A DNA stretch of 64,000 nucleotides. It comes from Flammula alnicola. Taxonomy: Eukaryota > Basidiomycota > Agaricomycetes > Agaricales > Strophariaceae. The DNA lies in contig JADNRV010000049.1 of assembly GCA_015499995.1 (NCBI GenBank), forward strand, positions 248,001-312,000, written 5' to 3'. Under the pieces are notes generated by a model. That model had not been told where the DNA came from. It searched no databases and saw nothing but the letters and a program-made list of their open reading frames with translations. This document shows positions 15,413 through 49,519 of this stretch, in pieces; the first letter of the stretch is position 1; every line of letters begins with the position of its first letter. The translations under genes were made by a program, and so were the position numbers.

Positions 15413-15840
15413 CATCAGGAAAAACACTTTTGCCCCAGGAGTTTCCCAGGAAACTGTAAGGTAGCCTAGGGGACCCTAAGAGTGCCAGGGCAGCCAGGTT
15501 GCAGTTAGCTCCCAGGAGACACTTGGGGCAATCTCTTCCCTTTAGCTTTTACTTAGGACACCCTAGGACGTACTTAGGGTGACCAAATGATCTCCTAGGC
15601 TGCAGTTGAATTTAAGCACTTCTTGCCTGGGTGAACCTAGGTTGCTCTGGGTTGCTCTTAGGTCAGCCAGAGCATATGCTCTGAAACTCTCAGTAAGCCT
15701 CCAAATATACACACAGAAATAATTTTAAATCAATATATTATGTTGCTATATAATGCGTAGACTAATTAACACTACTACTAGTTGGGTACAGGTACCCACA
15801 ACCTGCAAGCACCCATCAGCAAAATGTTATCTACCTAGAC

Positions 15841-16140: not shown

Positions 16141-16256
16141 TTCTGTCTTCGGTGTTGTGTTTTGCAACCACTTGTGGAGCCATCTTGGGTTTCAGTTCCA
16201 CTGTATGGCCTGTGGGTGGATTGGTGAGTTGGAGGTAGGGGCAGCGAGAGCAGAAT

Positions 16257-16284
16257 GCGAGATGAGTCATACGACTCATCTCGC
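16257..16284. other. Perfect hairpin, 12-bp stem
   Basis: GCGAGATGAGTC, loop ATAC, GACTCATCTCGC. Confidence 0.85.
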
Positions 16285-16887
16285 GACGCACCAAGTGGGT
16301 CTCCCTCTTCTAGGGCCTCCCCTCATTGTATATGATCCATTTTCTATCATCTATTCCTCTTGAAAGTCAGCCCACATCCCTAACATGAGGGGAGGGGCGC
16401 AAATGCCATCAGCGCGGTTGTTCAGTTCGGGCGAGGAAAGAGGGAGGGAGGACGAAGCATTTCAACTGCGAAACGAAGGTTCAACATGTCAGGTGACCTT
16501 CAATTCCAAACTCCGCTGGAAATGACTTAAGGAATTTCGCAAAGCTCAGATATAATCAGGTGACTAAACGCGTCGCGTCGCGCCCTCAGTTTCGTTGATT
16601 TCTTGACGAATTTGCGACATGCATGTCGCAAATTCGTAACACCTTGCTGGATCATCACTCCCTGCTTACCCTCTTTGCGACTCAGTGCTTATCTGGCCAA
16701 TCCGGTAATTCTCGGAAACTGCCGGATTACGGATCAGCAACGTTGAACGTTGTCGATCTTCGACTCCACGCTTCACCTCAACCCACTCTCTCTCGTTCCC
16801 CTTCTTGTCGAGGGATATAGGTGGGCAGCGAGGGGACCGAGCGATCAAGGGGAGGCCCTAGTAGAGGGGGACCCACAAGGTACGTGA

Positions 16888-16920
16888 GCGGAACGAGTCG
16901 ACAGCACCGACTCGTTCCGC
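16888..16920. other. Hairpin, 13-bp perfect stem
   Basis: GCGGAACGAGTCG, 7-nt loop, CGACTCGTTCCGC, placed directly after the GGTACGT that follows the GGGGAG block. Confidence 0.85.
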
Positions 16921-16975
16921 ACTTCTACTTCAAACCACACAGGACGCTCACCTCGAGTCCCCACAGCTTGTACGA

Positions 16976-17045
16976 GGAGACGACGGACAGCTGTTCGTCG
17001 TCTCCTTAGATTCGAACGTCGTCTGCCTCAGACGACGTTCGGATC
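16976..17045. other. Hairpin pair
   Basis: First hairpin GGAGACGACG...CGTCGTCTCC, then TTAGA, then TTCGAACGTCGTCTG / CAGACGACGTTCGGA. The pair recurs at 26,124 and 33,904, and reversed at 21,135. Confidence 0.85.
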
Positions 17046-17049
17046 TGTG

Positions 17050-17600
17050 CTTGGCACCTCGACCATGGCCTTACACCACCTACGAGTCCCATCCGCTGCG
17101 TTGCACACCCGATGCCTCCACTCTGGCGGCGTCGAGCATGCAAGAGCTTCATGCTCGCCCACGCAGCCACTCCGCCACATCCACCACTGCGGCATCCATC
17201 CTCCTCACCCCCAGCCTCCTCTGCAGCGACGTTGAGCACAAACGACTTTCGTGCTCGCTCATACAGCCCCCACACGGCCCCGACGACCACGATAACTGCC
17301 CCGCCGTGTCCATGACCCGCAATCTCCGTCCTCTCAATCCGCTGCCTCCGCTCCGGCAACCTCGAGCATGAACGAGCTCGATGCTCGCTCCTGCAGCCAC
17401 CTCGCCGCGTCCACGACTGCCGTGTCCATCCGATGATGAATCCACGATGCCGTCGTTGCATCGACGGCCCCACGACACCGCGGGGGCATCGACGACGACT
17501 GCACACCGCCCCAGGTGCGTCGGTGACAGCCCCATGACGCCGGAAGGTGCATCCACAACGCCTCCACAACGCCGCGGGTCCAACATCCACCCACAGGCCG
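17050..17600 (+). repeat. Degenerate GACGACGCC-type minisatellite
   Basis: Irregular units of roughly 30-40 bp around CCACGACnCCGCGGGTGCAT. Open in several frames only because units are rich in codons without stops. Confidence 0.6.
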
Positions 17601-17603
17601 TAT

Positions 17604-17671
17604 GAGGAGACGACGAACACGCGTCGTCTCCTCGTACAACTTGTCGTCGCCTGGGTAAACCAGGCGACGAT
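17604..17671. other. Hairpin pair, variant sequence
   Basis: GAGGAGACGACG...CGTCGTCTCCTC, then TCGTCGCCTGG, 5-nt loop, CCAGGCGACGA. The second stem differs from other copies but still pairs. Confidence 0.8.
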
Positions 17672-17689
17672 GATTCTTTGGACGTGCTA

Positions 17690-17880
17690 CGCCCCGCTGG
17701 CACGACGTCGCAACAGCGGGTGCACCCACAACGACACGACGATGCCGCAGGTGCGACGGCGACGACGACATGACAATGCCGCAACGGAGGATGCAACGTC
17801 GATGACACAGCAATGGCAGGCGCATCGACGACGAGACGTCGCGGCGCCGCGGATAGCACAACGACGACTACACCGCATCA
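17690..17880 (+). repeat. Second GACGACG minisatellite block in X1
   Basis: Same unit type as 17,050-17,600; it leads into the second core module. Confidence 0.55.
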
Positions 17881-17892
17881 ACAAAGGAGCCG

Positions 17893-18021
17893 ACTCCGTC
17901 GCGTGCTCCTCCACTCTTCGAAGGATGAAGGCTCGCTCTCGCAGGATTCAGATGGGAGGAGAAGGGACGGGAAAGCAAGGGAAGTCCCTGGCAGAGGGAA
18001 ACCCGTGAGGTGTGTCGCGGA
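17893..18021 (+). repeat. Core module, second copy in X1, interrupted by X2
   Basis: Matches 32,346-32,436 (GGAGGAGAAGGGACxGG, CCCTGGCAGAGGGAAACCC, GTCGCGGA). Its continuation (GAGCGTGTCG...) is found at 33,713, on the far side of X2. Confidence 0.85.
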
Positions 18022-19313
18022 CATCAGGAAAAACACTTTTTCCCCAGGTCTTCCCAAGGAACTCCTAGGGCAGCCTAAGAGGGCTAGGTCAGTCAGGTTG
18101 CTCATACTCTCTTGGGCGTCAGTTAGGAGATAACTTTTCTTTAGGGTAACCTAGGACACCCTAGGACGCACTGAAGGCAACCTAATGGTTTCCTAGATTG
18201 CAGCCAAATTTACTCAGAGTGTCCTAGGATAACACAATAGATCATAGGATTGGGTCAATTTGCATTTCTATTGCCCTGCGGTTCCCTTGTCCTGCCTCTA
18301 AGCACACTTTGCCAGTAGTTTTGAATCAATATATTATAGTACAGTACAGTACAGGGACTAGCGAACTACATAACTATCTAGCTACATTTAATACATGTCT
18401 AGGATATTGCATGGGTAGGCCATACCTGCCTGGGTCACAGGTATGATTACCAATGGAAATAGGAATGGGTAGGGGCCCAGCTACCGCTGATTCAAAGCTG
18501 CCAATCCCAAGGTGGCAGTGGAGGTTGAACAAACGCCAGGAGATCGACTGGGAGGAACGAGGTGGAACAACGTTAGTGAACTATGCTCATGTGTGCTGAA
18601 GCTGTGCTTACCTTGGGTTGAATCACCTCTGTTGTCGTTGTTTCATCGCTTACTGAACTCTTGAGTGAGCAGCTACATCATTGCACTCAGTTAATGTGGG
18701 TAAGCACACAGATCCATTTTGAACACGTACCTTCAATAGTTGACATTGTCTCCCAGATGCCTCTGCCCATCATCCACACCTGGCATTCGCCCTCAATTCT
18801 CGCCGCCACCGCGTGTCTGAGGCACCATACCGCCCGGTAAGCAGAGCACTCCATCCCACCCCGTTCGTGACTCCAAACTGTCCCAAACAGCGCCTGGATC
18901 GTCTGTGGAATGGCACCTCTGCGACCTTGGGTACATAGCAGCACAACGGTGCAGCGAAGGCACATCCAACCAAGGCACCATCTGCGGTCCTCCAGGCTAT
19001 GGTGTGTACTTCAGGTCGGCCGTGATTTTGAGAAGCTGGAAGTAGTCGACTGCAGCCACTGTCGTCGTTTCGTTGCTTATGAGCCTAGCTGTCAGAATGT
19101 CGCCCATCGGTGGTCGTGGTTGCTCTAGAAGAGGAGAATGAGTCAGCGAGGTGAGGCTGACATTGAAACCAAAGAGGTACGTAAGTTTTCTGCATAGCGA
19201 TGATGGAGGAATCAACGCTGGCCTGCAGCCATTGGGTTTAGCTGCAGCGTAAGGGGTTCCGTCATTCGCGACGACGTGCCAGGGGTTTCGAACCCAGTGT
19301 GGTGTGGTTCTGT

Positions 19314-20066
19314 CACCTGTATGTGCCAGTATCATGTATGATACCTGGGCTGCCTGCCAATAAGGAGTGTACATCCACAAGGCTAACAACCCCCTTGGGC
19401 AGTTGCCCAACACTATGCAACATAATATCTACAGGCTGCCGGGGTGCCAGGGATGGTTTTGGTGCTTGTTGTTGGGGCGGGTGATGGTAAACAGGTATCA
19501 ACAATGCAGGAAATAATGTCCAGCACTGTATTTTGGGTGCTGCTCGTCGTTGGGGGCGCTTTTGGGCGCGGGAAAAATTCTAATAGGGTCTATTAATATA
19601 TTCTGACCTGCCCCCACCATTTGCGCGCCTCGGGGAGGGCGGGGATGGCTGGATTGACGAGAATGGCTTTGGATGACGTTCCTATTTGGGGCGGGGCTGC
19701 TGTCAAACAACTGTCAACAACATGGGAAATGATGCCCGGGGCTGCATTTGGGCTCTTGCTCATCGTTGGGGACGGTTTGGAGCACGGGGAAAAATCTAAT
19801 AGGGTCTAGTAATATATTGCTACCCATTGCCGCCCTTTGCGCGCCTCATGCGGGGCGGGGATGGGTGGATTGACGAGGATGCCTTTGGATGACATTCTAA
19901 AATTAGACGAAAAGCACTAGTGTGATATTTTTAGATGCAAGCGCCGGTGCCTTGTTTCGTTATCTATAGATTAGATAGCCAGAAAGCGCCCACCTCGATA
20001 TTTTTAGATGCAGACGCTTGTGCCTCGGCGCCTGTCACTGTTATCTATAGATTAGATACTTTCTCG
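19314..20066 (+). repeat. Y subterminal inverted repeat (YA left)
   Basis: Matches 24,490-25,237 in reverse, 26,579-27,325 directly, and 31,260-31,970 in reverse. It contains internal degenerate units ending in GGATTGACGAGnATG and copies of the palindromic string ATCTATAGATTAGAT. Confidence 0.85.
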
Positions 20067-20800
20067 TATTTGGGCTCCTGCTCGTCATCGGGGTGGTTTC
20101 GAGCGCGGGACAAAATCCAATGGGGTCCCATAATATATTGCTGCCCAATGCCGCCCTTTGCGCGCCTCACAGGGGGGCGGGAATGGATGGATTGGTGCGG
20201 ATGGGTTTGGATGACATTCCAAAAATAACCGTACAGATCCGGATATTTTTAGAGAAAGTGATGGCATCATAAAATGCGATACCGGGCTTATTTTGGCGCT
20301 TGCACACCGCTCCCGTTAGAATTCCATTGAATTTAATACATATCCGTAATCTACTTGAAAATTCCAATCTAATGATACAATTTTTATCCTGAAATTTGGA
20401 CGGGAAGGGATGGATGCGTTGTTGTCCATCTGGATGATGCTGCCCGAAATGGTTACAAATGATGGGATCATTCTGCCTGCATTAGGATGCGCATGGGATG
20501 CTGGTGTCCATTATGATTTCGCACTTTATGCACCGTTCTTCTTATAATTTTATTAATTGGATTTCATAGATGTAATCTACGGCTGCAGAGGACTCTAACG
20601 CTGTCTTTTATCATTGAATTCAAGGAGGAAAGGCTGGATGGCTTGTCATCCATCCGGATGACAGCTCAACCACCTTCCGAATTCAGAAGCATCACTTTTA
20701 CTCAAAAAAATGTTAGATAAAACAAATATATTATTTTCTAATAAAGATTACATTGATACTGGTAACTACAATGTAAATTCGTGCAGATATCGAGAGCATG
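20067..20800 (+). repeat. Left-end-specific part of Y
   Basis: Shared in reverse with YB at about 30,750-31,255 (for example GGGCTTATTTTGG and GGAAGGGATGGATG), but not with YA's own right arm. This fixes the orientation of YB. Confidence 0.75.
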
Positions 20801-22544
20801 CCGAGCAATAGGGAGATGTGGTGCAACCCAAGGCCACGCCGGCGGCGGCGGATTGTCCCCTCGCTCCCTCTCCATCCACCTGTTGTCAACCGTCAGCTGT
20901 TGTCATTTGCTGGCACGGCGGCGGTGTAGGCCTCGGCATCATCAGCTGTTCATTTTCGTGCCCTTGTTGGCGTTGGCGTTGGCGTTGACGAGCGCGGCTC
21001 ACGAAAGACGCGCAACGTGATAACGAGGGCATCCGTGAGGAGTGAGTGGCATTGCGAGGGGAGGCGGTGGTAACGCCGCGAGCAGAGGTGGCGATGCGAT
21101 CGGAGGCGGCTGTGGTGGAGAGGTCCCAAAGCACAGATTCGAAAATCGTCTACACGAGACGATGTTCGAATCTAAGGAGACGACGAACGTTGGTTCGTCG
21201 TCTCCTCGTATAGCCTTGCGGCTGGCATCTCCGTGTTCTGGTCGTGCTGGATAGGATGGGCAGTGTCGAGCCTCGGGGCGTCATCCAGCCTGCCTCGCGC
21301 TCCTGGTTAACGTGGCTCGTGGGTCAGTCCGGCGCTCTGTCTGTCTGCCTGACCTCTGCCACCTACGATCCCATGGTAGATGAATGTCATCTCCCAGTCT
21401 CGCTAGCCACGTGTAACGTGGAATGGGAGATGGAAGATGTCGGCTGTACGTGGGTCAAGGGAAATGGGAGGTGGCAGGTTGGCGGCATCAACCGGGGGGA
21501 GAGAGATAGCGGGCGGCGGAAAGGGAGGCAGCGGGCGGCGGAAAGGCAGGCAGCGGACGCACCGAATGGGCCTCCCTTTTCATGCCGTCTTGCTATTGAA
21601 GAGCCGGTGCACGTCGAGCTGCAGTCGCCGTGTTGAGGTGAGATGGCGAGTGGATAGGCACGGGGCGATGGCGATCCTGGCATTCAACCTCGTTTACATC
21701 CAATCACGTGCAATAGGAGTCGCCAGCAGGATTCCCGGGCTCGAGGATCCGTGCTGGCAGCTACGCAGTGGGAGGAGCAAACAAGAGGGACGAGGGGGGC
21801 TGGCAGTTCTTGTTAGTTATGTCAAAGGTAGTGGTTGTGGCTGGAATACATACCATGCGGGCCTCCCGCTCCATGGGTCCGCCCTCAGGTTCTTAATCCA
21901 CCTCAAACATGAAAAAGCAGCGAGCGAAGAGGAGGGTGGAGGGTTGCACAACGAGATCAGCAATGTTGAAAATCGTTGATCAGGATTGAAGCGGAGCTTT
22001 AAAGTACCGGACCGGTTAATTTCTGGGCCCCTGTCGTTGTCGAGGACGGCGTCAACGCTGTAACATGCTTCTGGGTAGATTAGAAATTTAATTTATCATT
22101 AGAATATATATGTTACACTCAGTTATTCTAGCATTTATGGCGAATATTTAACTATCCTCTTCTACACAAATGAAATTCATATTCATCTGCCAAAGCGAGC
22201 CTCGAGGTGATTTCGGATTGTCGAAATCGAAAACGCTATGTTTGGCCTCCTCGAGACTTCAAAATTTTAAAGTAACATTGCAGGTATAACATATAGATAA
22301 ATTTAAAGTATTCTAGATACTTGATAAAGCTCCAGACAGATGTCCGAGTCCCAGGGCTCAAAATAACATCAAGAACATTGAATTGATCAAAGATTTGTCT
22401 GCCGTTTCATGCTCAAGTTGACTACAAAGTGTGTGGCATTCCACATACCCTGAGATGGCCTAGAAAACTCTTTTATTTTAGATGCAATAGATTATTTGCA
22501 TTAAGTTATTGATATTTCAGACCTCTCAACAGAGCTTCTGTGCT
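20801..22544. other. YA interior without a recognisable gene
   Basis: Includes a (GTTGGC)n-type run near 20,963-20,985, a 24-bp tandem (GGGCGGCGGAAAGG units) near 21,507-21,560, and AT-rich DNA from 22,080. Frames up to 180 codons (21,437-21,979) have no domain. Confidence 0.5.
21135..21205. other. Hairpin pair in reversed order
   Basis: AGATTCGAA-type stem first, then GGAGACGACGAAC, loop GTTG, GTTCGTCGTCTCC. The order is opposite to X1/X2, so the unit is inverted here. Confidence 0.85.
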
Positions 22545-22658
22545 ACTAAAGGCGGGACAGTTGATCTCGGAAAGCCCAAAATCACCACGCTCTCGATAAA
22601 AGGTGGATAGAGGCATAGCGACGCTTCAATTCTGCGTTCGGAAGTGCATAAATTGTTC

Positions 22659-22666
22659 TATATATC
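22659..22666 (+). promoter_or_regulatory. TATA-like box, conserved in YA and YB
   Basis: CTATATATC about 30 bp before CAATAAAATA; the matching YB site is at 29,351. No transcription data. Confidence 0.4.
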
Positions 22667-23107
22667 TATTATAGATTAATTCCGACAATAAAATACAACT
22701 TTACAAGTCAGTTCGAAGTCGTCCGAGACGTCGTCGACGGGGAGGAACGTACACCTTGGGATCGCATGACGTAATTTGGATATTCATTTCAGTGGAGGAA
22801 ACTAGTTTGTCGTATGTAGGAGTTCGCAAAAAAAATTATTTCAATGAGAGATTTTGGATTTGAGATAAATAACTAATTATAAGTATATACTGATGATTTT
22901 ACAGACAAGGGGTGGACTGGGGTGTGCTTCGGAGACGTTCGAAACGTCGACGACGGATCGGGGTCGACTTTGCCAGCCAATCGTCTCGGTCTCGGAATTT
23001 GCCGGCTAACACATCAACGACGTTGAACATCGCTGATGGTTATCTTTCCTCCACCATCTCCTCGCTCCCTCGTCTCTCCCTACCCCCACAGGCCTCAAAA
23101 ATTATTT

Positions 23108-23164
23108 GTAAGTAATTTAATTAATGCTATATTCCATATTCTAACAAGTTTGCGTAAAAATTAG
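23108..23164 (+). other. Canonical intron in non-coding module (YA)
   Basis: Donor GTAAGT, branch-like CTAAC at about 23,141, acceptor TTAG; 57 bp, a normal size for this genome. It sits between the palindrome region and the GGGGAG block as in X2 and YB. Confidence 0.55.
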
Positions 23165-23694
23165 GCTCGTTACAGCTCGAACGAAACCCATCACCACCTT
23201 GCAGGCCCGTCCCCTCGTCGAGGGATGTGGGCTCACTCTAGAAGGATTTGGATGGAAGGAGAGGGGAACGAGTTACTAAGGGGAGACCCTGAAAGAGGGA
23301 GACCCCCCCGGTGCGATTCGTCTTTCGGTACCCCACGGCTCACCCTTCCAACAACAGACCAACAAGGAGACGCCGAGCATGGGCACGATCGATTGAAGGC
23401 AAGCAACAACGTCGCCTCATATAGACGACGTTCGAAGCTTTGCCTCGGACCTCACCACCACGGCCTTACACGCCCCACAAACCCCGTCCGCAGCGCCATT
23501 TGGCGTCACCCACCGCAGCCGACTAGGCTGCCACCGCGCACCCTGGCTTAGGCACGGCCAACGCCCCCACCTACCTCCTTACCCCTCCACCGGCGTACGA
23601 GTTCGCCTCTGCCCTCACTGATGAGTCCTCGCACACCGCCACCCACCCCTTTCCTCGGCCCAAAGGAGAGACGCTGTTGCTCGGACACGACGAC

Positions 23695-24235
23695 ACGACG
23701 ACGGCGACGAGGTGGGAGCAGCAGCAGCAGAAGCGCGACCGCTGCTGCTGCTCAGATACGACAACGGCGGCGAGACAGCAGCGGCAGCAGCATGACCGCC
23801 GCTCTTCGGATTCGAAGACGATAGCCAGGTGACGGCAGCAGCGCGTCCGCTGCTGCTGCTCGTATATGGCGAGGATGACAAAGTGGGCGCAACACCAGCA
23901 CCGGAACTGCTGCTGCTGCTGCTCCGATGCGGCGACGACGGCGGCGAGGTGGCAGGAGCATCATCAGCATGACAGCAGCCCCTGGGATACGGCAACGACA
24001 ACGGCCAGGTGGCACGAGCAGCGGCAGCACGACAGCTGCTGCTGGGATAACACGACGACGGTAAGGTGGGAGCAGTGGCAGCAATATGACGGCTGCTGTT
24101 GCTCAGTACGGCGACGGCGACGAGGTGGGCGGAGCGCCAGCAGCACGATCGCTGTTGCTGCTCCGTTATGGCGCCGACAACGAGGTGGGAGGGTGGCAGC
24201 GGCGATGCGACGACACGGAGGAGAACGAGGATTAG
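23695..24235 (+). repeat. Hairpin-forming CAG/CTG array
   Basis: About nine degenerate units of 55-65 bp. Each is GCAGCAGCAGC-like, then a short centre (CACGACC), then GCTGCTGCTGC-like, then a spacer GATACGACGACGGCGAGGTG. Each unit can fold on itself. Confidence 0.8.
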
Positions 24236-24489
24236 CAGCAGGAGTGGCGACGACGTGCATTACTCACGTCGACATGTGCCCTCCATGCTCGCTTATCCTC
24301 CTTTCACTCCTGTATCTGATCTTTTCTTTGTTGTATATCTTATGACCAGTACATATCACAGTTAAAATATATCCAATGTGTTCTATTTACTCTGTTTTAC
24401 CTGAGGTTTTCGAGCATGGAGACAGCAGGCCAAAATGAACCATGTCTATTTTTAAACATGTATGGCGTGGGATTAATGGAAAGTATCTA

Positions 24490-25237
24490 ATCTATAGATA
24501 ACAGAGACAGGCGCCGAGGCACAAGCGTCTGCATCTAAAAATATCGAGGTGGGCGCTTTCTGGCTATCTAATCTATAGATAACGAAACAAGGCACCGGCG
24601 CTTGCATCTAAAAATATCACACTAGCGCTTTTCGTCTAATTTTAGAATGTCATCCAAAGGCATCCTCGTCAATCCACCCATCCCCGCCCCGCGTGAGGCG
24701 CGCAAAGGGCGGCAATGGGTAGCAATATATTACTAGACCCCATTAGATTTTTCCCCGTGCTCCAAACCGTCCCCAACGATGAGCAAGAGCCCAAATGCAG
24801 CCCCGGGCATCATTTCCCATGTTGTTGACAGTTGTTTGACAGCAGCCCCGCCCCAAATAGGAACATCATCCAAAGCCATTCTCGTCAATCCACCCATCCC
24901 CGCCCACCAACCGCCCACCCCGAGGCGCGCAAAGGGTGGCGGCAGGTCAAAATATATTAATAGATCCCATTATATTTTTTTCCGCGCCCTAATGCGCCCA
25001 AAACGACGAGCAGCACCCAAAATACAGTGCTGGACATCATTTCTAGCATTGTTGACACCTATTTACCATCACCCGCCCCAACAACAAGCACCAAAACCAT
25101 CCCTGGCACCCGGCAGCCTGTAGATATTATGTTGCATAGTGTTGGGCAACTGCCCAAGAGGGTTGTTAGCCTTGTGGATGTACACTCCTTATTGGCAGGC
25201 AGCCCAGGTATCATATATAATTCTAGCTTACATGGCT
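24490..25237 (-). repeat. Y subterminal inverted repeat (YA right)
   Basis: Reverse copy of 19,314-20,066. The outer 20 bp differ from the left end, so the Y termini are only partly symmetrical. Confidence 0.85.
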
Positions 25238-25616
25238 GGTTCTGTGTGAAACAAGGGGCGGGTTAGTCACGTCATGGGTAGTTGGGTAACCACATACCTT
25301 GTGGCCTTTGTCCTCATCCTCCACTCACTGGTATCCCATCCCCCGGCGTCGTGGATCACTTGGTGTCATTGTTGCTGGGTTTGGCTTGGCCAGGGGCCAG
25401 CCCACATCCCTCTTACGAGGCGGAGGGGCACTCAGCCCCAAGTGCTGCCTGAGAGATTGTAATTAGTAGGAAGAAACGAGACAAGGATGAAGCTAAGTCC
25501 GCTCAGTCGAACATTCGAAGTTCAACATGGGCATGTGACCATGCAGTCATGTGACCAGACGCGTCCTCGCGTCTAAGTCCAACGTCAGCTCAAACCTTCG
25601 TTTATTCTCTGTGACA

Positions 25617-25642
25617 GATTTGCGACATGCATGTCGCAAATC
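25617..25642. other. 26-bp perfect palindrome
   Basis: GATTTGCGACATG and its exact reverse complement, no loop. X1 has a 32-bp version with a different outer stem (ACGAATTT/AAATTCGT) at 16,606. Confidence 0.88.
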
Positions 25643-25705
25643 CGTAACGCCTCGCTGGACTGGAAATCATAACGCCTCGCTGGATCGGCCTGCCCGTCGG
25701 TGGTC

Positions 25706-25775
25706 GCAGTTTCCGAGTCAATCTCGGAAACTGCCAGATAAAGATCAACGACGTTCAACGTCGTTGATCTTTATC
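25706..25775. other. Two adjacent perfect hairpins
   Basis: GCAGTTTCCGAG, loop TCAAT, CTCGGAAACTGC; then GATAAAGATCAACGACGTT, one central C, and the exact reverse complement (39 bp). Confidence 0.88.
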
Positions 25776-25842
25776 TCTAACCACCACCAACAACTCTCTT
25801 GCCTCTCCCCCGTGCGCGGTGCCCCTCAAGACATTCAAAAAG

Positions 25843-25903
25843 GTATTTAACGTATTTTTTTGATTCTCATGTTTATATTTCTAATGTTTTTTGACCCATA
25901 CAG
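25843..25903 (+). other. Canonical intron in non-coding module (X2)
   Basis: AAAAAG then donor GTATTT, CTAATG branch-like, acceptor CATACAG; 61 bp. Position matches 23,108 and 29,606. Confidence 0.5.
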
Positions 25904-26039
25904 GGACTGCCGCACGAACGAACGAGCCGACTCCGTCGCGTGCTCCTCCGCTCTTCGAGGGATGTAGGGTTGAGGTAGGTAGCGAGGGGACAGAGACCAA
26001 GGGTAGGCCCTGGTAGAGGGGGACCCGCAAAGTACGTGA

Positions 26040-26072
26040 GCGGAACGAGTCGGTACTGCCGACTCGTTCTGC
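26040..26072. other. Hairpin after the GGG-block (X2)
   Basis: GCGGAACGAGTCGG / CCGACTCGTTCTGC, about 14 bp with one mismatch. Same position as 16,888 and 29,811. Confidence 0.82.
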
Positions 26073-26123
26073 ACTTCTACTTCAGATGACACGGACGCTC
26101 ACCTCTTCCTACAGCTTGTACCA

Positions 26124-26193
26124 GGAGACGACGAACTGCTGTTCGTCGTCTCCTTAGATTCGAACGTCGTCGCATCAGACGACGTTCGAATCT
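26124..26193. other. Hairpin pair (X2)
   Basis: GGAGACGACGAAC, loop TGCT, GTTCGTCGTCTCC; then AGATTCGAACGTCGTC, 6-nt loop, GACGACGTTCGAATCT. Both stems perfect. Confidence 0.9.
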
Positions 26194-26264
26194 GTGCTTG
26201 GGGCCTCCACCACGGCCTTACACCACCTGCGAGCCCCATCCGCTGGGCCTCAGTCACCAAACGC

Positions 26265-26570
26265 CGTTCACTGCCACGACGCTGCGGGTACAACGACGGC
26301 GGACGCGACCACGATGCCATGATGCCACGACGCTGCGGGTGCAACGGCGGGTGCAGCAACGACGACGCCACGACGCCGACTCAGCCATTATCGCCTCGTC
26401 TCTCTGGTGCATCGATGACGCCACAACGGGTGCAACGACGACAACGCCACAGCGCTACGGGTGACCATACAACGACGATGATGCCGCGACGCTGCGCGTG
26501 CAACGGCCATGACAGCTCATCCGGCAGGTGCAGCGACGACGATGCGACGACGCCAACGCAACGGTCGGTG
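26265..26570 (+). repeat. Minisatellite split by YB (left part)
   Basis: Units of about 33-36 bp around GACGCTGCGGGTGCAACGAC. The array resumes at 31,979 after YB. Confidence 0.7.
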
Positions 26571-26578
26571 CAACAACC

Positions 26579-27325
26579 AGCCATGTAAGCTAGAATTATA
26601 TATGATACCTGGGCTGCCTGCCAATAAGGAGTGTACATCCACAAGGCTAACAACCCCCTTGGGCAGTTGCCCAATCCTATGCAACACAATATCTACAGGC
26701 TGCCGGGGTGCCAGGGATGGCTTTGGTGCTTGTTGTTGGGGCGGGTGATAGTAAACAGGTGTCAACAATGCCAGAAATGATGTCCAGCACTGTATTTTGG
26801 GTGCCGCTCGTCGTTGGGGGCGCTTTTGGGCGCGGAAAAAATTCTAATAGGGTCTATTAATATATTCTGACCTGCCCCCACCGTTTGCGCGCCTCGGGGA
26901 GGGCGGGGATGGGTGGATTGACGAGAATGGCTTTGGATGACGTTCCTATTTGGGGCGGGGCTGCTGTCAAACAACTGTCAACAACGTGGGAAATGATGCC
27001 CGGGGTTGTATTTGGGCTCTTGCTCATCGTCGGGGGCGGTTTGGAGCACGGGAAAAAAATCCATTGGGGTCTAGTAATATATTGCTACCCATTGCCGCCC
27101 TTTGCGCGCTTCACGCGGGGCGGGGATGGATGGATTGACGAGGATGTCTTTGGATGACAATCTAAAATTAGACGGAAAGCGCCGGGTGTGATATTTTTAG
27201 ATGCCAGCGCTTGTGCCTTGTTTCATTATCTATAGATTAGATTGCCAGCAAGCGCCCAGCGTAATATTTTTAGATCCAGATGCTCGTGCCTTGGCTGTCT
27301 CTGTTATCTATAGATTAGATATGTT
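26579..27325 (+). repeat. Y subterminal inverted repeat (YB left)
   Basis: Pairs with 31,260-31,970 inside YB, and with 24,490-25,237 as the equivalent end of YA. Confidence 0.85.
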
Positions 27326-27544
27326 TTATTAATCCCACGCTGCATGTTTAAAAATAGACTTGGTTCATTTTCTGTTTGCTCGAAAATCTCAGGTGAAAAA
27401 GATTAAACAGAATACATTGAATATGTTTAAACTAATGATACTAAGTACATAAGATATACAAAAAAGACCAATAAAATATGCGAGTAAAACGAGGATATGC
27501 GAACAAGGAGGGGACATATCGACGTGAGTGACGCACGTCGACGC

Positions 27545-28140
27545 CTCGCCTGCTGCTGCTCATCCTCATTCCCCTCGTCATTGCTCCCACCTCACCGTCG
27601 CCCCCATAACGGAGCCGCAGCAGCAGCTGGTCGCGCTGCTGCTCGTTGTCGTGGTACCCGAGCAGCAGCGCGACCAGCTGCTGCTCGTTATCGTCGCCGT
27701 ATCCGAGCAGCAGCGCTCGTGCTGCTGCTCGTGGTCGTCGTCGTATCCGAGCACGTTGTCACCGTATCCGAGCAGCAGCGGTCGTGCTGCTGCTCGTCGT
27801 CGTCGTACCCGAGCAGCAGCCGGTCGCGCTGCTGCTCGTTAGCGTCGTCGTATCCGAGCAGCGGCAGCACGATGGCTGCTGCTCGTCGTCGTCGTAGCTG
27901 AGCACGTTGTCGCCGTATCCGAGCGGCAGCCATCGTGCTGCCGCTCCTCCCACCTCGACGTATCCGAGCGGCAGCGGTCGTGCTGCTGCTGCTGCCACTC
28001 GTCGTCGTCGCCGTATCCGAGCGGTAGCAGCCGTCGTGCTGCCGCTGTCAGCTCGCTATCGTCTTCGATCCCGAGCAGCAGCCATCGTACGCTGCCGCTG
28101 CTGTCACCTCGCCGTCGTTGTCGTATCTGAGCAGCAGCTA
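27545..28140 (-). repeat. Hairpin-forming CAG/CTG array (reverse)
   Basis: About ten units read here as CGTATCCGAGCAGCAGC...GCTGCTGCTCGTCGTCG. It is the inverse of the YA array, and the two are joined to matching flanks. Confidence 0.8.
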
Positions 28141-29254
28141 CATCGGCGAGGGAGCCGCCAGCGAGGCGATGGGCTCAGTGGACGGCGGGCCCGGCGTTCG
28201 ACAGGCGCGGAGGCGCAGGGCGAGGGGGTATGGGCAGGTTTTCCACATACCTGGGTTAGTCGCCTGCGTTCTGGCCCTTTTCCATCGTCGGTGTTGCGCT
28301 GCACAGAGGTTCGCGGTGCCGTGTCATGGGTTTCATGCCCATGGAGTTGTTATCTGCACGAAAAAGGGGTGGAGGTTAGCAGGTTAGGAACAGTGTAGCA
28401 GGAGGAGCCACGCACCTGGTGTCATTCATTGCCTCTCTCGTCCTCATCCCGCCCTTTCGCACTGGCATCATCGGGTTCCGTAGCGAGTTGGCTTGCTGAT
28501 GACGCGAGAGTGGCTGCGAGCCCTCGTGGCTTGCTGGTGTGGGTTCTTTCTGCCTTCGTGGGGTCGTCGCGAGCGGGGCTGGTGGGCTGGGGTCGTAGCA
28601 GATGTCAACGGTGGCTGGTACTGGGCGATAGGGAAGTGGGAGGAAAGAAAGAATGTCGACGGTTGATCGAATTTCGGCGAACGCCGAAGTCAATCCGATT
28701 GGCTAAGGCACACGGTCCGCCATTCAATCTCATGCATCCCTCATCGTTGAGCACGTCTCGGAACGAGCACAAACCCTTCTTAAATACTCTATTATAAACG
28801 GAATGTAGTCTAATTATAATATATTTTACATTTATCAAAATCCGAGGAGGTTTGGCTGTTAACATCTCCCTTGATTCATGTTCGGCATCAAGGGTGGTGA
28901 TTTTGGGATGTCTGGGATCTTGTATCTCACCTCTAACCAAATGAAAAGTGTATTAGCAGCTCGTCGAAACAAGTATTTTATCAGTAGAATATTGTTGGAT
29001 GATAACTGTGGTGGTTCTTCGATTTTCCATGCATTTTACGGAATGGTACATGCATTTCAATCAAACAAGGCATGAGACGAGTCAGAAATCCTTCATCAAT
29101 TGGGCATTCCTGACGGTAACTTGAATTTACAAGCTTCCGCGTGGCCTTAGTATGGTTTAAACTATCTAGAATTATTCCATGTCATTCAGCTAATATTCTT
29201 AAGAAGTATTTCTGAATTTAAACTCGATTCTACGAGGGGAAATGGTCGAGATAG
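28141..29254. other. YB interior without a recognisable gene
   Basis: GC-rich up to about 28,700 and AT-rich after 28,790. No domain found in frames up to 122 codons. Confidence 0.5.
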
Positions 29255-29605
29255 ATGATATCAGAAATCCGAAATCACCACGCTCTCGATGAAAGGTGAA
29301 TAGAGGCACGGCGAAGCTTCAATTCTCCGTCCGGACGCGGATAAAGTGTGCTATATATATATTATTAGTATATACCAACAATAAAATAGCTCTTGGATTG
29401 CATGTGGAGTGCCTCGGAGACGTTCGAAACCTCGACGACGGATCGGAGTCTGGCCGGGCCGGGGAATCCAGCCAATTATATCGCTCGGAAAACACCGGAA
29501 AACAGATCAACAAACGATCAACGTCGTTGTTCAACCACCACCACTACCCTCTCAACACTCTTCCTCGCCCGTCCCGCGTCCCGCCACCCCAAGACTTCAA
29601 AAAAG

Positions 29606-29650
29606 GTACGTTAAGTATTTTATTTTGGTTTATTTTATTTTATTTTGCAG
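29606..29650 (+). other. Canonical intron in non-coding module (YB)
   Basis: AAAAAG then donor GTACGT, T-rich body, acceptor TTGCAG; 45 bp. Confidence 0.5.
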
Positions 29651-29810
29651 TTTTACATCTAGCTAGGTATGTAAACGAGTGTGCCGCCACGTCATGTGCC
29701 CCCCCTCCTTTCTGAGGGTTGTGGGCTGACGTTCGAAAGGGTGTGGGTGTGGCTAGAGGGGAAGGGAGCTAAAAGGGGAGACCCTGGGCGAGGGAGACCC
29801 GCCAGGTACG

Positions 29811-29856
29811 TCTCGAAAGGTGCGGTAACGTTGAAACGTTCCGACTCCTTTCGAGA
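29811..29856. other. Hairpin after the GGG-block (YB), unrelated sequence
   Basis: TCTCGAAAGG ... CCTTTCGAGA, 10-bp perfect stem, with an inner AACGTT...AACGTT. Same position as 16,888 and 26,040, but no sequence in common. Confidence 0.8.
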
Positions 29857-30009
29857 TTCCCCCTTTCCTTATCGCGTTGCTCACCCATAGACCAGGTCGT
29901 CATACCAGGTCGTCGTACCACTGTCGCAGTCGCCTTTCAGCCCTGACCACCACCACCCCCATTCATGTCAACTATCGCTGCTGCATTGATCCAACAAAGA
30001 AGGGGTGGA

Positions 30010-30205
30010 GGCATAGCAGCAGCACGATCGCTCTGCTTCGAAACGACGAGGAAGCAGCAGCACGATGCTGCTGCTTGGATACGACGGCGATGGCGAGGTA
30101 AGAGTAGCAGCAGCAGCGGCACGACCGCTGCTGCTGCTCGGATACCGCACCGACGACGAGGTGGGAGCAGCAGCAGCACGCCTGCCGCTGCTTGGATACC
30201 ACACT
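30010..30205 (+). repeat. Third CAG/CTG hairpin array
   Basis: Three to four units in the same orientation as 23,695-24,235. Confidence 0.75.
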
Positions 30206-31259
30206 GACTTGGGCGACAAAGAAGGGCGAGGGAGACGAGGGCGAAGGAGGCGAAGACCCAGCGCCAGCGTCCTCCCCGCAGAGACGCCATGTCTCCACCA
30301 CCCCGGCCCTCGTTTGGCAGGTGCCGGCCTCTCACGAATTCCCTCTCCCCTTGCCCCACCCACGTCCCTACGTCTCCTAGCTCGCGGTCCACGCTACCCA
30401 TGGGTAACGCTGCGAAGAGACGACCAATGGGTTTCAAGTGGCCAATCTGGGGAGGACAAGTGCAGATGCCGCCGTGGGAGCCGACGAGGGAGGCAAGGAC
30501 CCAGCCCCGCTGCCATCGCCCAAGGGGAGCACCCCACTGCCAAGCCAACAAGGTCAACGACAAGCCACTAACGACGCCGCGGGACCGAACGACGAGGTGG
30601 GAGACGAGGGCGAGGGGACAACGCACCGCTGTCATGGGCTGGGGTTGTACGCCGCACCCCTATTGCTCGGATTGCGCCTGCTACGTGCGTTGCCGCCCAC
30701 CGTTACATGCAGTCATTTGTATTCTCGTTGTCTAGTAGTAGTAGTATTATTGATCTAATAATCCTTGTGAAACATAATACATATATTTGTTTTTATGAAA
30801 GATTTTCGAGAGCAGCAAGTGAGTGGAAACACCTTCCGAATGCGGAAGGTGTCCCAATATGGTCCCATCAATTGTTCCCACTCTGGGCAGTGTCATCCAA
30901 ATGAATAAAGATCCATCCATCCCTTCCTCCTCGAAATTTGGGATGAAAACTATAGCACTAGAATCGCGCTTATATGTAGATCACGAATATATGTTTTATT
31001 TAATAAAATTCTAATGGGAAGGGTGTGCAAGGTCCAAAATAAGCCCGTTATCCCATGCCGTGATGCCATCATTTGGTGCGGTTATTTTTGGAACGTCATC
31101 CAAACCCATCCGCGCCAATCCATCCATTTCCGCTGCCCTGTGACGCGCGCAAAGGGTGGCATTGTAGCAATATATTATACCCATTGGATTTCCCGTGCTC
31201 AAAACCACCCTCAACGATGAGCAGGGAACCCAAATAGTAATACAAGAACATATAACAGA

Positions 31260-31970
31260 CAGGCGCCGAGGCACAAGTGTCTGCGTCTAAAAATATCACT
31301 CTCTGGCAATCTAATCTATAGATAACGAAACAAGCACAAGCGCTGGCATCTAAAAATATCACACTCGGCGCTTTCCGTCTAATTTTAGATTGTCATCCAA
31401 AGACATCCTCGTCAATCCATCCATCCCCGCCCCGCGTGAAGCGCGCAAAGGGCGGCAATGGGTAGCAATATATTACTAGACCCCATTAGATTTTTCCCCG
31501 TGCTCCAAACCGCCCCCAACGATGAGCAAGAGCCCAAATACAACCCCGGGCATCATTTCCCACGTTGTTGACAGTTGTTTGACAGCAGCCCCGCCCCAAA
31601 TAGGAACGCCATCCAAAGCCATTCTCGTCAATCCACCCATCCCCGCCCTCCCGAGGCGCGCAAACGGTGGGGGCAGGTCAGAATATATTAATAGACCCTA
31701 TTAGAATTTTTCCCACACCCAAAAGCGCCCCCAACGACGAGCAGCACCCAAAATACAGTGCCGGACATCATTTCTGGCAATGTTGACACCTATTTACCAT
31801 CACTCGCCCCAACAACAAGCACCAAAGCCATCCATGGCACCCCGGCAGCCTGTAGATATTATGTTGCATAGTGTTGGGCAACTGCCCAAGGGGGTTGTTA
31901 GCCTTGTGGATGTACACTCCTTATTGGCAGGCAGCCCAGGTATCATACATGATACTGGCACATACAGGTG
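31260..31970 (-). repeat. Y subterminal inverted repeat (YB right)
   Basis: Inverse of 26,579-27,325. Outer bases match YA's left end. Confidence 0.85.
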
Positions 31971-31978
31971 CAACAACG

Positions 31979-32160
31979 ACGATGCCACGACACGGCGGGT
32001 GCAACGGCGGGTGCAGCGACGACAACGTCACGACGCCAACGATGACGCGGGTGCAACGGCCGATGCAACAGTGGGTGCATCGATGCCACGACGCCGCGGA
32101 TGCGACGACGAAGCCATGACGCCGCGGGTGTGCAACGATGACGCGGACGACTGCCTCGTG
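31979..32160 (+). repeat. Minisatellite split by YB (right part)
   Basis: Continues 26,265-26,570 with the same GGGTGCAACGGC-type unit. Confidence 0.7.
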
Positions 32161-32171
32161 CATGGCTATAC

Positions 32172-32250
32172 GAGACAACGGCGTTAACGACATCGTTGTC
32201 TCCTCGAACGTAGTCTATCGAACGTAGTCTGGTTTACCAGACCGCGTTCG
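32172..32250. other. Hairpin pair, partly decayed
   Basis: GAGACAACG...CGTTGTCTC (CAACG/CGTTG instead of CGACG/CGTCG, still paired), then CGAACGTAGTCTGG / CCAGACCGCGTTCG with two mismatches. Confidence 0.7.
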
Positions 32251-32345
32251 AGTTCGTTTGGACACCCGCTACCACCCACCACCGCCAACTTACCGCCAAG
32301 GAGGACCGCCGAGGAGGACCAGCAGCAGCGACTGCTGCTGCTGGA

Positions 32346-32552
32346 CTCGCCTCGCAGGATTTGGATAGGAGGAGAAGGGACTGGGAACGCAAGGGGAGTC
32401 CCTGGCAGAGGGAAACCCACGAGGTGCGTCGCGGAGCGTGTCGCATATGCGACACATTCTGTGGATCCTCCTTCACCACCCCACCACCCCATCACTCACC
32501 ACCCTTCCACTTACAGGCTGAAAGAGGAGATGACGGCCGTCGTCATCTCCTC
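32346..32552 (+). repeat. Core module, second copy in X2 (uninterrupted X2 target)
   Basis: GGAGAAGGGACTGGGAACGC, CCCTGGCAGAGGGAAACCC, GTCGCGGAGCGTGTCG, an 18-bp perfect palindrome at 32,438-32,455 and a 12-bp-stem hairpin at 32,524-32,552 (GAGGAGATGACG / CGTCATCTCCTC). Confidence 0.8.
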
Positions 32553-32639
32553 TTACATTCGCGTCTGTCCTGGCCGCCGCCCACCATCGACCAATGGGTG
32601 CTCAGTCACCAAGCGCCGCCCACCAGTTACCCGGTTCCA

Positions 32640-33310
32640 ACAGCAACACCACCACGACCGCCTCTGCCCCTTGTCCCATGACGCGCCGCCGCCGCAACGA
32701 TGACGCCACGATGGCGAGTCCATCGACGACGTTGCAATGGCAGGTGCATCGACGATGACCCCACGACGCTGCGGGTACAATGACAACGGCGCCACAGGTG
32801 CTCTCCGATGTCTCGATACAACGAGGAGGGACAACAGCAGCAACCGCCGCCCCCGCCACCACCATTTCGATATAACGACGACGGCCACCACCTGCCAGTG
32901 AACACACTCGAGGCGGGAGCAGCGAGGCGAGGTAGGCGCGGCGAGTGAGGTGACAGCAAAGGGGCGGCAGGTGCAGTGACGGCGAGGCAGGGCGACAGCA
33001 GGATGATGCCGCCGCCGCTGCAACGACGAAGCTGCCATGGCGGGTGCATCGACGACGCCGCAGCTGCGGGTGCATCGACGTTCGCGGGTACATCGATGCC
33101 GCGGGTACAATAACGCCGTCGGTACAATAATGATGACGCCGCAAGAGCGGGTGCATCGCGATGACCCTACGGTGCCACAGGTACTTCGATGATGGCGCAG
33201 CTGCGGGTGCGTCGATGATGACCCCACGAAACCGCAGGTGCATCCATGACGACCCCACAACACCGCGGGTCCAACGACAACAGCGGGTGCATTGACGACG
33301 ATGTCCCAGC
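32640..33310 (+). repeat. Large GACGACG/GCGGGTGCATC minisatellite
   Basis: Degenerate 30-40 bp units (for example CGACGCCGCAGCTGCGGGTG). Long frames here (up to 287 codons on minus) follow from the repeat. Confidence 0.65.
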
Positions 33311-33493
33311 GACAGTGTGAACAAACACGGAAGATCAGCTGGATGTCAAATAATGTTTTAGATATAGCATTAAGTTGTCTACTAAAAGTTCTTATATGTA
33401 TCAAACCCTTTGGCAATATAATTTTACATTATGTAGCTATAAAATGAATTGTATTTGGAAAAAGGCCACCTAGATTCTTAGACCGCTCTGAAA

Positions 33494-33613
33494 GTGTCAT
33501 AGGATATATTAAAATTGACAGAACATGCTGGGAAGTCTCCTGGCGTCACAGGAGTGTCATAGGATATATTACAATTGATGGAACCTTCTGGGAAGTCTCC
33601 TGGTGTCACAGGA
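33494..33613 (+). repeat. Two tandem 60-bp units in the X2 right subterminal region
   Basis: GTGTCATAGGATATATTA begins at 33,494 and 33,554; a third, diverged GTGTCCC starts at 33,614. Confidence 0.85.
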
Positions 33614-33903
33614 GTGTCCCAGGGCACTATATGTGCCCTGGGATGCCCTGGTAGTATGTCTTCCAGCCAAATTTTCCTAGGATGACCTGGGGCAAAAGTG
33701 TTTTTCCTGATGGAGCGTGTCGTATACATGGCACGTTCTGCAAATCCTCCTTCACCACCCCACAACTCACCACCTTCTACCTACAGGCCGAACGAGGGGA
33801 CGACAGCATTCACGTTTGTCCTGGCCGCTACCCACGCTCGACCACGGACGCTCGGTCGCCAAGCGCTGCCCACTGGCTCCCCTGTTCCAACAATAACATT
33901 TAC

Positions 33904-33977
33904 AAGGAGACGACGAACCGCCGTTTCGTCGTCTCCTTAGATTCGAATGTTGTCTGATGCAGACAACGTTCGAATCT
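33904..33977. other. Hairpin pair (X1 right part)
   Basis: AAGGAGACGACGAA...TTTCGTCGTCTCCTT, then AGATTCGAATGTTGTCTG / CAGACAACGTTCGAATCT. GTTGTC/GACAAC replaces CGTCGTC/GACGACG of the other copies. Confidence 0.88.
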
Positions 33978-34912
33978 GTGCTTGGGGCCTCACTTTAACA
34001 CCACCACGGCCTTACACCACCAGCAAGCCCCATCCGCTGTGCCATCTCAGTCACCAAGTGCCGTCCACCAGCTGCCCTGTTCCAGCAACACCACCACGAC
34101 CGCCGCCCCCATTACAAGGACGACAGATGGTGAGGATGATCGACAGGCAGCGAGGATGATCACCGCCTCGTCTCAGTTCCTTCATCTCCTCTTCTAAGTT
34201 CTCTCCTCTCGTCTTTCGTCCTCTCCTGTCCTCCTCTCGTCACCTACTGATCTCAGCTTGAGCCGTCATCGCCAGCACCATCGGACAAGCAGCTTGCCAT
34301 CCATACCACCTGTGTTCACCTCTAATGTCGGTTGGTGTCGTCCCATTCATCTCGTAAGTCTCCATATCCCTTCTTTACCCACATATCGCTGATAATATAA
34401 TAGCTGCAACATCGCATCATGGTCAGCAACGTCCTCGTGTACGCAAACAATGTCGCTACTCACCTTCCACTAACACGCCCGCTGACGAGCCACCCCATCT
34501 AGAGAACACAGCTAGCTATCAGGGCACCATGCCATTGAAAAGCTACAAATAATGCTCGTACTTAGAGTCTTGGTTCATTGTGTAATTTGCTTGTACCATA
34601 TTATATTTAGAATCCATGTACAAATCCAAGTACATTAATTACATTTCATATATTCAATGTTGAGTTTCTGAATTGTTGACCAAATTCAAGCAATGTGCAA
34701 CCTAGGATGTGTGTAACCTAGGACATGTGGAGGTTGACCCAAGTTGCTCTGGGATGGCCTGGGAAATTTGATCTTATCTAACTTGTCATAGGGCCAAAAG
34801 TGGCCTCACAGGAGTATCCAAGGTGCCCCAGGATGCCCTTATAGCGCATTATAATACCTCTTCCAGTCAATTTTTCCTGGGATGACCTGGGGCAAAAGTG
34901 TTTTTCCTGATG

Positions 34913-46519: not shown

Positions 46520-46765
46520 TGACAAGTGTGTCTGATCTCTAGGGAAATATATCTGACTTCCGGAAAAGTGCATTTAACTTCCGGGGAGGTGTGTCTGATC
46601 TCCAGGAAAGTGCCGCTGACTTCCAGAAAAGTGAGTCTGACTTCCCGGGAAATGTGTCTGCCTTCTAGGAAAGTGCATCTAATCTCTGGGGAAGTGCATC
46701 TGATCTCTGGGGAAGTGCATCTGACTTCCAGGAAAGTGCATTTGACTTCCAGGGAAACACATTGA
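46520..46765 (+). repeat. 21-bp minisatellite, about 11 units
   Basis: GAAGTGCATCTGATCTCTGGG-type units. Because 21 is a multiple of three, both strands stay open and spell 7-residue repeats (VHLTSRK-like); not a gene. Confidence 0.85.
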
Positions 46766-48110: not shown

Positions 48111-48219
48111 TGCAACAGGATTTCTGGACCGCTGTGTTAATTTAGGCAGACCCGTAAGCATCTCTGGAGCTCCACTTAAATTTCAGTGGACCCGCAAGCA
48201 AATCCAGACTCTGTTAAAC

Positions 48220-49517: not shown

Positions 49518-49519
49518 AA

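Follow-up and report, generated by a model that had tools for sequence, protein, structure and literature searches.

The window analyzed here, a stretch of 64,000 nucleotides from the basidiomycete Flammula alnicola (assembly GCA_015499995.1, contig JADNRV010000049.1, positions 248,001 to 312,000 of the forward strand), carries members of a repeat family with short hairpins whose loops occur in both orientations among related copies. With a stem of at least 10 bp, a loop of 3–20 bases and at most one mismatch, 39 hairpins are found in the window, 30 of them within positions 16606–33977, versus 5, 4 and 5 when the sequence was resampled three times with an order-1 model. The hairpins that an earlier note had described, as structures keeping their place while both arms change, are thus confirmed, and so are the stems it had placed behind a recurrent motif, the GGG-block, namely GCGGAACGAGTCG-type stems (16888, 26043), TCTCGAAAGG/CCTTTCGAGA (29811/29847) and the palindrome GTGTCGCATATGCGACAC (32438–32455). 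Six hairpins, H1–H6, follow each other in constant order within one module of ~680 bp (Table 1). A search of the genome (74.4 Mb, 861 contigs) with this module gave 211 matches, many of them partial or the two strands of a single palindrome, on at least 31 contigs among the matches listed; the hairpins belong to a dispersed repeat family, which is apparently non-coding. Regarding the other content of the window, protein matches identify open reading frames for a Spo7-like protein and a DDE_3 transposase, and the reading frame of an aspartic protease has named relatives in Pholiota, Candolleomyces and Mycena. No Rfam RNA family reached the gathering score in the window, and the presence of a known RNA family or of a tRNA there was rejected.

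Table 1. Positions of hairpins, GGG-blocks and intron-like stretches of the repeat family in the window.
Feature	Position	Strand	Remark
GGG-block, divergent alpha arm, ends exon-like stretch	16297..16324	-	then GTGCGT donor-like site
Intron-like GTGCGT...CTCAC...CACAG, alpha arm, hairpin inside	16210..16291	-	splice-site consensus
H0, 12-bp stem GCGAGATGAGTC, directly behind donor-like site	16257..16284	-	hairpin scan
H1 copy A, 14-bp stem, loop CATG (full palindrome)	16606..16637	+	
GGG-block copy A (beta arm)	16847..16874	+	
Intron-like GTACGT...CTCAC...CACAG with H4, copy A	16880..16966	+	
H4 copy A, stem GCGGAACGAGTCG	16888..16920	+	
H5 copy A	16975..17006	+	one-sided A to G in left arm
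H6 copy A	17008..17046	+	one-sided change in right arm, TTCGGATCT
H6 and H5, reverse-oriented copy	21135..21206	-	
H1 copy B	25617..25642	+	
H2 copy B	25706..25734	+	arm GCAGTTTCCGAG = reverse complement of CTCGGAAACTGC; derived in its lineage
H3 copy B, 19-bp stem	25736..25776	+	centre base C, versus G in others
GGG-block copy B	25999..26026	+	
Intron-like stretch with H4, copy B	26032..26114	+	
H4 copy B, loop TACTG	26043..26069	+	
H5 copy B, loop TGCT	26123..26154	+	
H6 copy B	26156..26193	+	one-base deletion in left arm
GGG-block	29773..29800	+	then GTACGT and TCTCGAAAGG/CCTTTCGAGA stem (29811-29856)
GGG-block, another family member	32391..32418	+	
Intron-like GTGCGT...ACTCACC...TTACAG	32424..32516	+	18-bp palindrome GTGTCGCATATGCGACAC at 32438-32455
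H5-type hairpin GAGGAGATGACG/CGTCATCTCCTC	32522..32554	+	directly behind acceptor-like site
H5 and H6 copy C	33904..33977	+	H6: a CpG change in both arms, plus a T.G mismatch from a change in one arm

When copies are aligned by the flanks of their hairpins (all rows kept in these tallies), loops are exact reverse complements of each other between copies, with the flanks of the arms unchanged. At 61 oriented H5 places genome-wide, the loop is GGCA in 8 and TGCC in 9, AGCA in 6 and TGCT in 5, CGCC in 5 and GGCG in 2, CAAA in 6 and TTTG in 2, CAAC in 5 and GTTG in 2; self-complementary loops (GGCC 3, AGCT 3) and partnerless ones (GGAA 1, ATTG 1, CGCT 1, GTTA 2) make up the remainder. These five reverse-complement pairs account for 50 of the 61 places, and none of 20,000 sets reaches five pairs under either of two null models (random word sets and single-substitution word sets). 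Regarding H6, two pairs (ATG 18/CAT 13, ACG 1/CGT 2) cover 34 of 40 places, and 993 and 917 of 20,000 null sets do as well; for H4, the single pair TACTG 12/CAGTA 6 covers 18 of 32 places, with 279 and 405 of 20,000. The H6 pairs (about 5%) and the H4 pair (1–2%) are hence moderately unlikely to have arisen by chance; 10 of 50 rows for H6 and 22 of 54 for H4, being the opposite strand of the same hairpins, were left out of these counts. The only difference in H3 concerns the centre base and may be due to a substitution.

Inverted loops are also found between close copies. The H4 loop is CAGTA in copies C168 and C176 and TACTG in C315, copies which are 99.6–99.7% identical over 3.4 kb, where the flip sits among 9 and 10 clusters of differences; likewise, the H5 loop is TGCT in C297 and AGCA in the near-identical C357. 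Among six groups of close copies compared, two contain a flip and four none; in one group (C203/C100) the differences are too numerous to list and the H4–H6 loops agree. It could be proposed that loops are turned by cutting and rejoining, whether during cruciform processing, by a recombinase or through conversion that involves hairpins of copies in opposite orientation. Copies do lie on both strands, the stems are palindromic and short exchanges between inverted copies would swap loops, but the flip separating C315 from C168 and C176 involves no more than the 5 bp that separate the arms and leaves the near flanks intact; we regard this route as unlikely. On one tree of 39 copies, parsimony requires at least 18 flips (6 in H4, 9 in H5 and 3 in H6), self-complementary, gapped and a few odd loops being treated as missing and the two orientation classes being set by hand. 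Bringing loops into one orientation lowers their diversity from 0.44, 0.34 and 0.58 to 0.16, 0.22 and 0.22 for H4, H5 and H6, respectively. Compared with 300 label shuffles, orientation changes on the tree are fewer for H4 (6 versus a mean of 10.6, minimum 7) and for H6 (3 versus 12.1, minimum 8).

In addition to the inversion of loops, arms have been rewritten. The left arm of H2 is present in 18 of 34 copies, whose common ancestor comprises 19 tips (support 91); the odd tip lacks it at this place, as do 15 copies outside, including C145_26659p, which lies outside the lineage and has similar flanks. Within this lineage, a left side resembling GTTTTCTGACCACTCATG turned into the 12-bp arm GCAGTTTCCGAG, which is exactly reverse-complementary to the right arm, with the loss of ~8 bases, and some copies have changed the left arm since. 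For H3, three states coexist, GATAAAG/CTTTATC (five copies), GATAAAG/CTTGATC (six) and GATCAAG/CTTGATC (six); this mirrored transversion is not at a CpG, its mismatched intermediate is still present among copies and it presumably arose stepwise, in the order in which the states are given here.

The earlier note had drawn its case from paired substitutions, stating that both arms are always changed, and had read them as selection for structure or as copying of one arm from the other. The three paired changes it quoted are present in the sequence. However, the hairpin at 33939 has AATG facing CGTT, i.e., a one-sided T.G mismatch, and the one at 32172 a one-sided difference in length (left ACGAGACAACG, right CGTTGTCTCCTCG), so that two of the three quoted changes adjoin one-sided changes within the same hairpin; moreover, all three are C-to-T/G-to-A changes at CpG in both arms. 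In a palindrome, a CpG stands at the same place in each arm, and either of the two may turn into TG or CA; independent decay of the arms should produce matched double hits as often as unmatched ones. In the H5 and H6 stems of 34 distinct copies (out of 41; one truncated copy and C79 were removed and five identical rows merged), 1087 cells contain 7 two-sided changes, 37 one-sided changes of G-U type, 8 of which fall at a single position (34 copies, ancestry uncorrected), and 22 unpaired ones. The 7 two-sided cells exceed the mean of 1.8 in shuffles, 1 of 500 being as high, and slid-structure controls give 0–6. Over H4–H6 in 39 copies, 84 one-sided cells stand against 10 two-sided ones, and on the tree 57 pair-breaking events (28 G.T, 25 A.C and 4 other) against 8 two-sided changes, without reversals; truncated or misaligned stems were left out of the event counts (C223_1299653p H5 and H6, C429_5870m H4, C745_28781m H4–H6, C108_35274p H5 and C108_6911m H4). 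All 8 two-sided events are at CpG sites, and CpG double hits, counted on the same stems with C745_28781m H5 kept, are matched and unmatched in 10:8 cells or 8:5 lineages, the latter after merging the sister copies C100 and C203 by hand.

Both-arm CpG changes within the family are hence probably coincident hits, and the stems decay mainly in a single arm at a time, via CpG transitions. Aligning the copies thus gave one-sided changes at least as often as paired ones, an outcome that the earlier note had itself named as contradicting its claim. Despite the excess over shuffles, paired substitutions were rejected as a proof of structure on the basis of the matched-to-unmatched test and of the event count; they are few, all at CpG, and matched about as often as not. 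This is also a warning that CpG substitutions in palindromes can mimic covariation. Mutation bias, that is CpG decay in both arms with nothing copying or selecting, is sufficient for the substitutions initially quoted and fits the CpG location of every two-sided event together with the ratios of double hits; as a complete account it is very unlikely, since it leaves the inverted loops, the H2 arm, the non-CpG transversion of H3 and the slow change of the stems unexplained. As for the two guesses of the earlier note, copying between arms finds support in evidence that it did not cite (the inverted loops, the H2 arm and the mirrored H3 transversion), and selection for structure is made plausible by the slow stems, without any preference for G.U at the level of events.

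Indeed, the stems change slowly. In the H4–H6 region, diversity is 0.080 in stems, 0.177 in flanks and 0.44 in loops. Cells differing from the consensus amount to 1.65% in stems versus 9.0% in flanks outside CpG (5.5 times less) and to 6.0% versus 15.9% at CpG (2.7 times less), the flank values being inflated by alignment noise; C223_1299653p, C745_28781m and C429_5870m were dropped whole from these site rates, from which selection for stems appears plausible. This slow change argues for an additional constraint on the palindrome or for arm-templated repair. The conservation of the stems is the least explained part of the data, with a constraint on the DNA palindrome, RNA structure and arm-templated repair of CpG decay as candidates.

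A further point is the setting of the hairpins. In the window, there are 7 occurrences of the GGG-block AAGGGGAGGCCCTRGYAGAGGGGGACCC versus 0.00 expected, and the set of segments used for block and copy scans (302.7 kb in 39 segments, window included) contains 60 blocks with at least 150 nt behind them, among them all 7 of the window. As the copies are related, the following tallies are not independent. A donor-like site, mostly GTACGT (33) or GTGCGT (14), lies at most 14 nt from the block in 59 of 60 cases (3.1% in shuffles), and a CTNAY-like branch site 8–30 nt upstream of an acceptor (CAG/TAG) is found in 54 of these 59 (37.8% in shuffles). Donor-like, branch-like and acceptor sites thus stand in the order of a spliceosomal intron across copies, and their consensus suggests that these stretches may be spliced. 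Behind 39 of the 59 donor-like sites, a perfect hairpin of at least 7 bp follows within the next 60 nt, compared to 2.7% in shuffles, starting 6–18 nt from the site (7–9 nt in 26 of the 39). Its stem varies by family (GCGGAACGAGTC, GCGAGATGAGTC, CAACGAATCGAGTC, ACAGAACGGGTC, GTGTCGC, TCTCGAAAGG), and the alpha stem GCGAGATGAGTC differs from the beta stem GCGGAACGAGTC at three mirrored positions. In an incomplete list of 12 intron clusters, the first 60 nt fold with z ≤ −3 in 8; the other 4, including a decayed representative of the largest cluster, lack such folding. H5 starts directly behind the acceptor-like site. A simple coding constraint on H5 and H6 was rejected: among 32 copies from an incomplete list of blocks, a stop occurs within 102 nt behind the acceptor in 22 (frame 0), 21 (frame 1) and 15 (frame 2), and none of the three frames stays open over this distance in every copy (upstream exons not joined).

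One alternative is that selection keeps the stems as RNA hairpins, located both in the intron downstream of the 5′ splice site and in the exon after it, with classical compensatory mutations. Slow stems, hairpins behind most donor-like sites with stems differing between families, the folding of most intron clusters listed, the mirrored alpha and beta differences and the excesses of two-sided cells over shuffles and of G-U-type over unpaired cells all speak in its favor. However, RNA pairing should tolerate G.U more, while G.T and A.C breaks are similarly frequent, so that there is no clear RNA-wobble signature; two-sided events are found at CpG only and are no more often matched than independent decay predicts, and exact inversion of loops is not predicted at all. 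We therefore consider this explanation possible but rather unlikely.

GGG-blocks often form head-to-head pairs, e.g., 16297 (−) and 16847 (+), and both arms of such pairs look as if they might be transcribed and spliced. Pairs ~500–700 bp apart were observed in the window (16297–16874) and in C297, C357, C429, C205, C140, C745, C126, C312 and C545, which would fit a repeat with two divergent transcripts; a second intron-like stretch, with GTATGT, CTAAC and GTGCAG, lies in the alpha arm. A GT...AG-like stretch of 80 bp at 25832–25911 of the window is shared by few copies (C805, C157, C153) and absent from many. Processed (spliced) retrocopies were rejected, the boundaries of the missing 80 bp not being at splice-like sites.

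A single strand-switch model covers both the inverted loops and the rewritten arms, and we think it probable that the family consists of conserved palindromes in which template switching flips the loops and sometimes rewrites an arm. The nascent strand would, during replication, jump to the opposite strand within one arm, copy the loop backwards and return in the other arm, which would leave the loop turned in place. With other switch points, one arm would be written as the reverse complement of the other, as in the birth of the H2 arm and probably in the mirrored change of H3. Several observations weigh against this reading. Template switching alone fails to explain why stems are slower than flanks, and one-sided cells of G-U type outnumber unpaired ones, at 37 to 22, although a single position contributes 8 of the 37. 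For H5, orientation on the tree is barely better than with shuffled labels (9 changes versus a mean of 10.7, minimum 6), a pattern which artefacts would match; moreover, 23 of the 61 H5 places have their register from 34 matched letters alone, and these hold nearly all CAAA/TTTG and about a third of CAAC/GTTG. An origin of the inversions in sequencing or assembly errors at hairpin DNA, as the nearly random orientation of H5 might suggest, is nevertheless highly improbable, as the H4 and H6 orientations follow the tree, some clades share a state and, for H5, five different loops are each found together with their reverse complement. Loop states could also spread between similar copies by ordinary gene conversion, and true inversions may be as few as 8, since the firm minimum is then one inversion per reverse-complement pair of H4–H6. 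Furthermore, neither the 18 copies of H2 nor the 11 listed alpha copies of H0 contain a flip, and no flip combined with stem repair in the same event was noticed in the comparisons of copies, which were no systematic test and in which many arms are already perfect. A stronger proposal would be that a dedicated DNA-level process, either frequent strand switching or an activity of the host or of the element, keeps and turns the palindromes as small invertible loops, the paired arm serving as a repair template which removes CpG decay and keeps the stems without selection on RNA; we judge this quite unlikely.

Larger palindromes were also observed. The contig segment C117:22500–31500 contains, at positions 2322–2718, a perfect inverted repeat of 194 bp with a 9-base loop, which may have arisen by template switching, represent two paired ends of an element or result from misassembly. 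In C68 (90.7–101.7 kb), several matches are symmetric around one point, like a large palindrome; its two H5 loops are CGCC and GGCG while its H6 loops agree with each other, and the arms are thus not exact copies.

Foldback and miniature inverted-repeat transposable element (MITE)-like repeats are dispersed and have strong inverted repeats, as here. The present family differs in combining several short internal palindromes with intron-like segments. Regarding the mechanism, Monttinen and Loytynoja (2022; PMC8794818) attribute compensatory changes, stem creation and whole-loop inversion at hairpins of RNA genes to one replication strand switch, loop inversion being described in the legend of Fig. 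1, panel F; inversions are given there as rare (in a large rRNA data set, 69 alone and 6 accompanied by a compensatory change). The strand-switch model is the same, but here inversions have occurred repeatedly and at more than one hairpin within a single nuclear repeat family. The nearest natural parallel is found in plastids, where, according to PMC6005162, which cites Kelchner and Wendel (1996) and Kim and Lee (2005), minute inversions associated with hairpins are homoplasious among close relatives; as here, a loop between inverted repeats is turned in place, across species in that case and, in ours, among paralogous copies within one nuclear, fungal genome. Recurrent microinversion hotspots of avian nuclear introns are similarly recurrent and nuclear, but show no association with stem-loops (PMC3123225). 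In fungi, repeated introns with inverted repeats and predicted hairpins are described as symmetrical stwintrons and introner-like elements (PMC8469720); these are whole introns, some with terminal inverted repeats of 45–55 nt, inserted at new gene positions, whereas here the hairpin is short, follows directly on a donor-like site and belongs to copies of one repeat, which also has hairpins outside the intron. A literature search, which scarcely reached subscription journals, found no nuclear repeat family with inverting hairpin loops. The mechanism is already known, and the recurrent nuclear hotspot appears to be a new form of it. PMC8794818 raises the question of whether selection maintains hairpins or whether they last because replication errors copy one arm into the other; that study deals with conserved RNA genes, in which changes of the loop are filtered out. 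With dozens of copies in one genome and loops that are seemingly free to flip, the flip rate, the dependence on stem and loop and the strand bias are directly measurable.

Finally, other repeats lie in and around the family. Exact 18-base copies of CATCAGGAAAAACACTTT are present in the window at 15413 and 18022 (+) and at 33695–33712 and 34895–34912 (−), and those at 18022 and 33712 resemble the terminal inverted repeats of a ~15.7-kb insertion, which interrupts a GGG-block intron between GGTGTGTCGCGGA on the left and GAGCGTGTCG on the right and may have produced a 2-bp GA target duplication. CAG/CTG-rich hairpin arrays, partly with a period of ~45 bp, extend over 27619–28138, 23692–24192 and 30015–30202, an example being the 27-bp stem at 27619–27685, and long tandem arrays with a period of ~40 bp (TCTCCGGAGCTCC core) occupy 46763–51645 in two opposite orientations.

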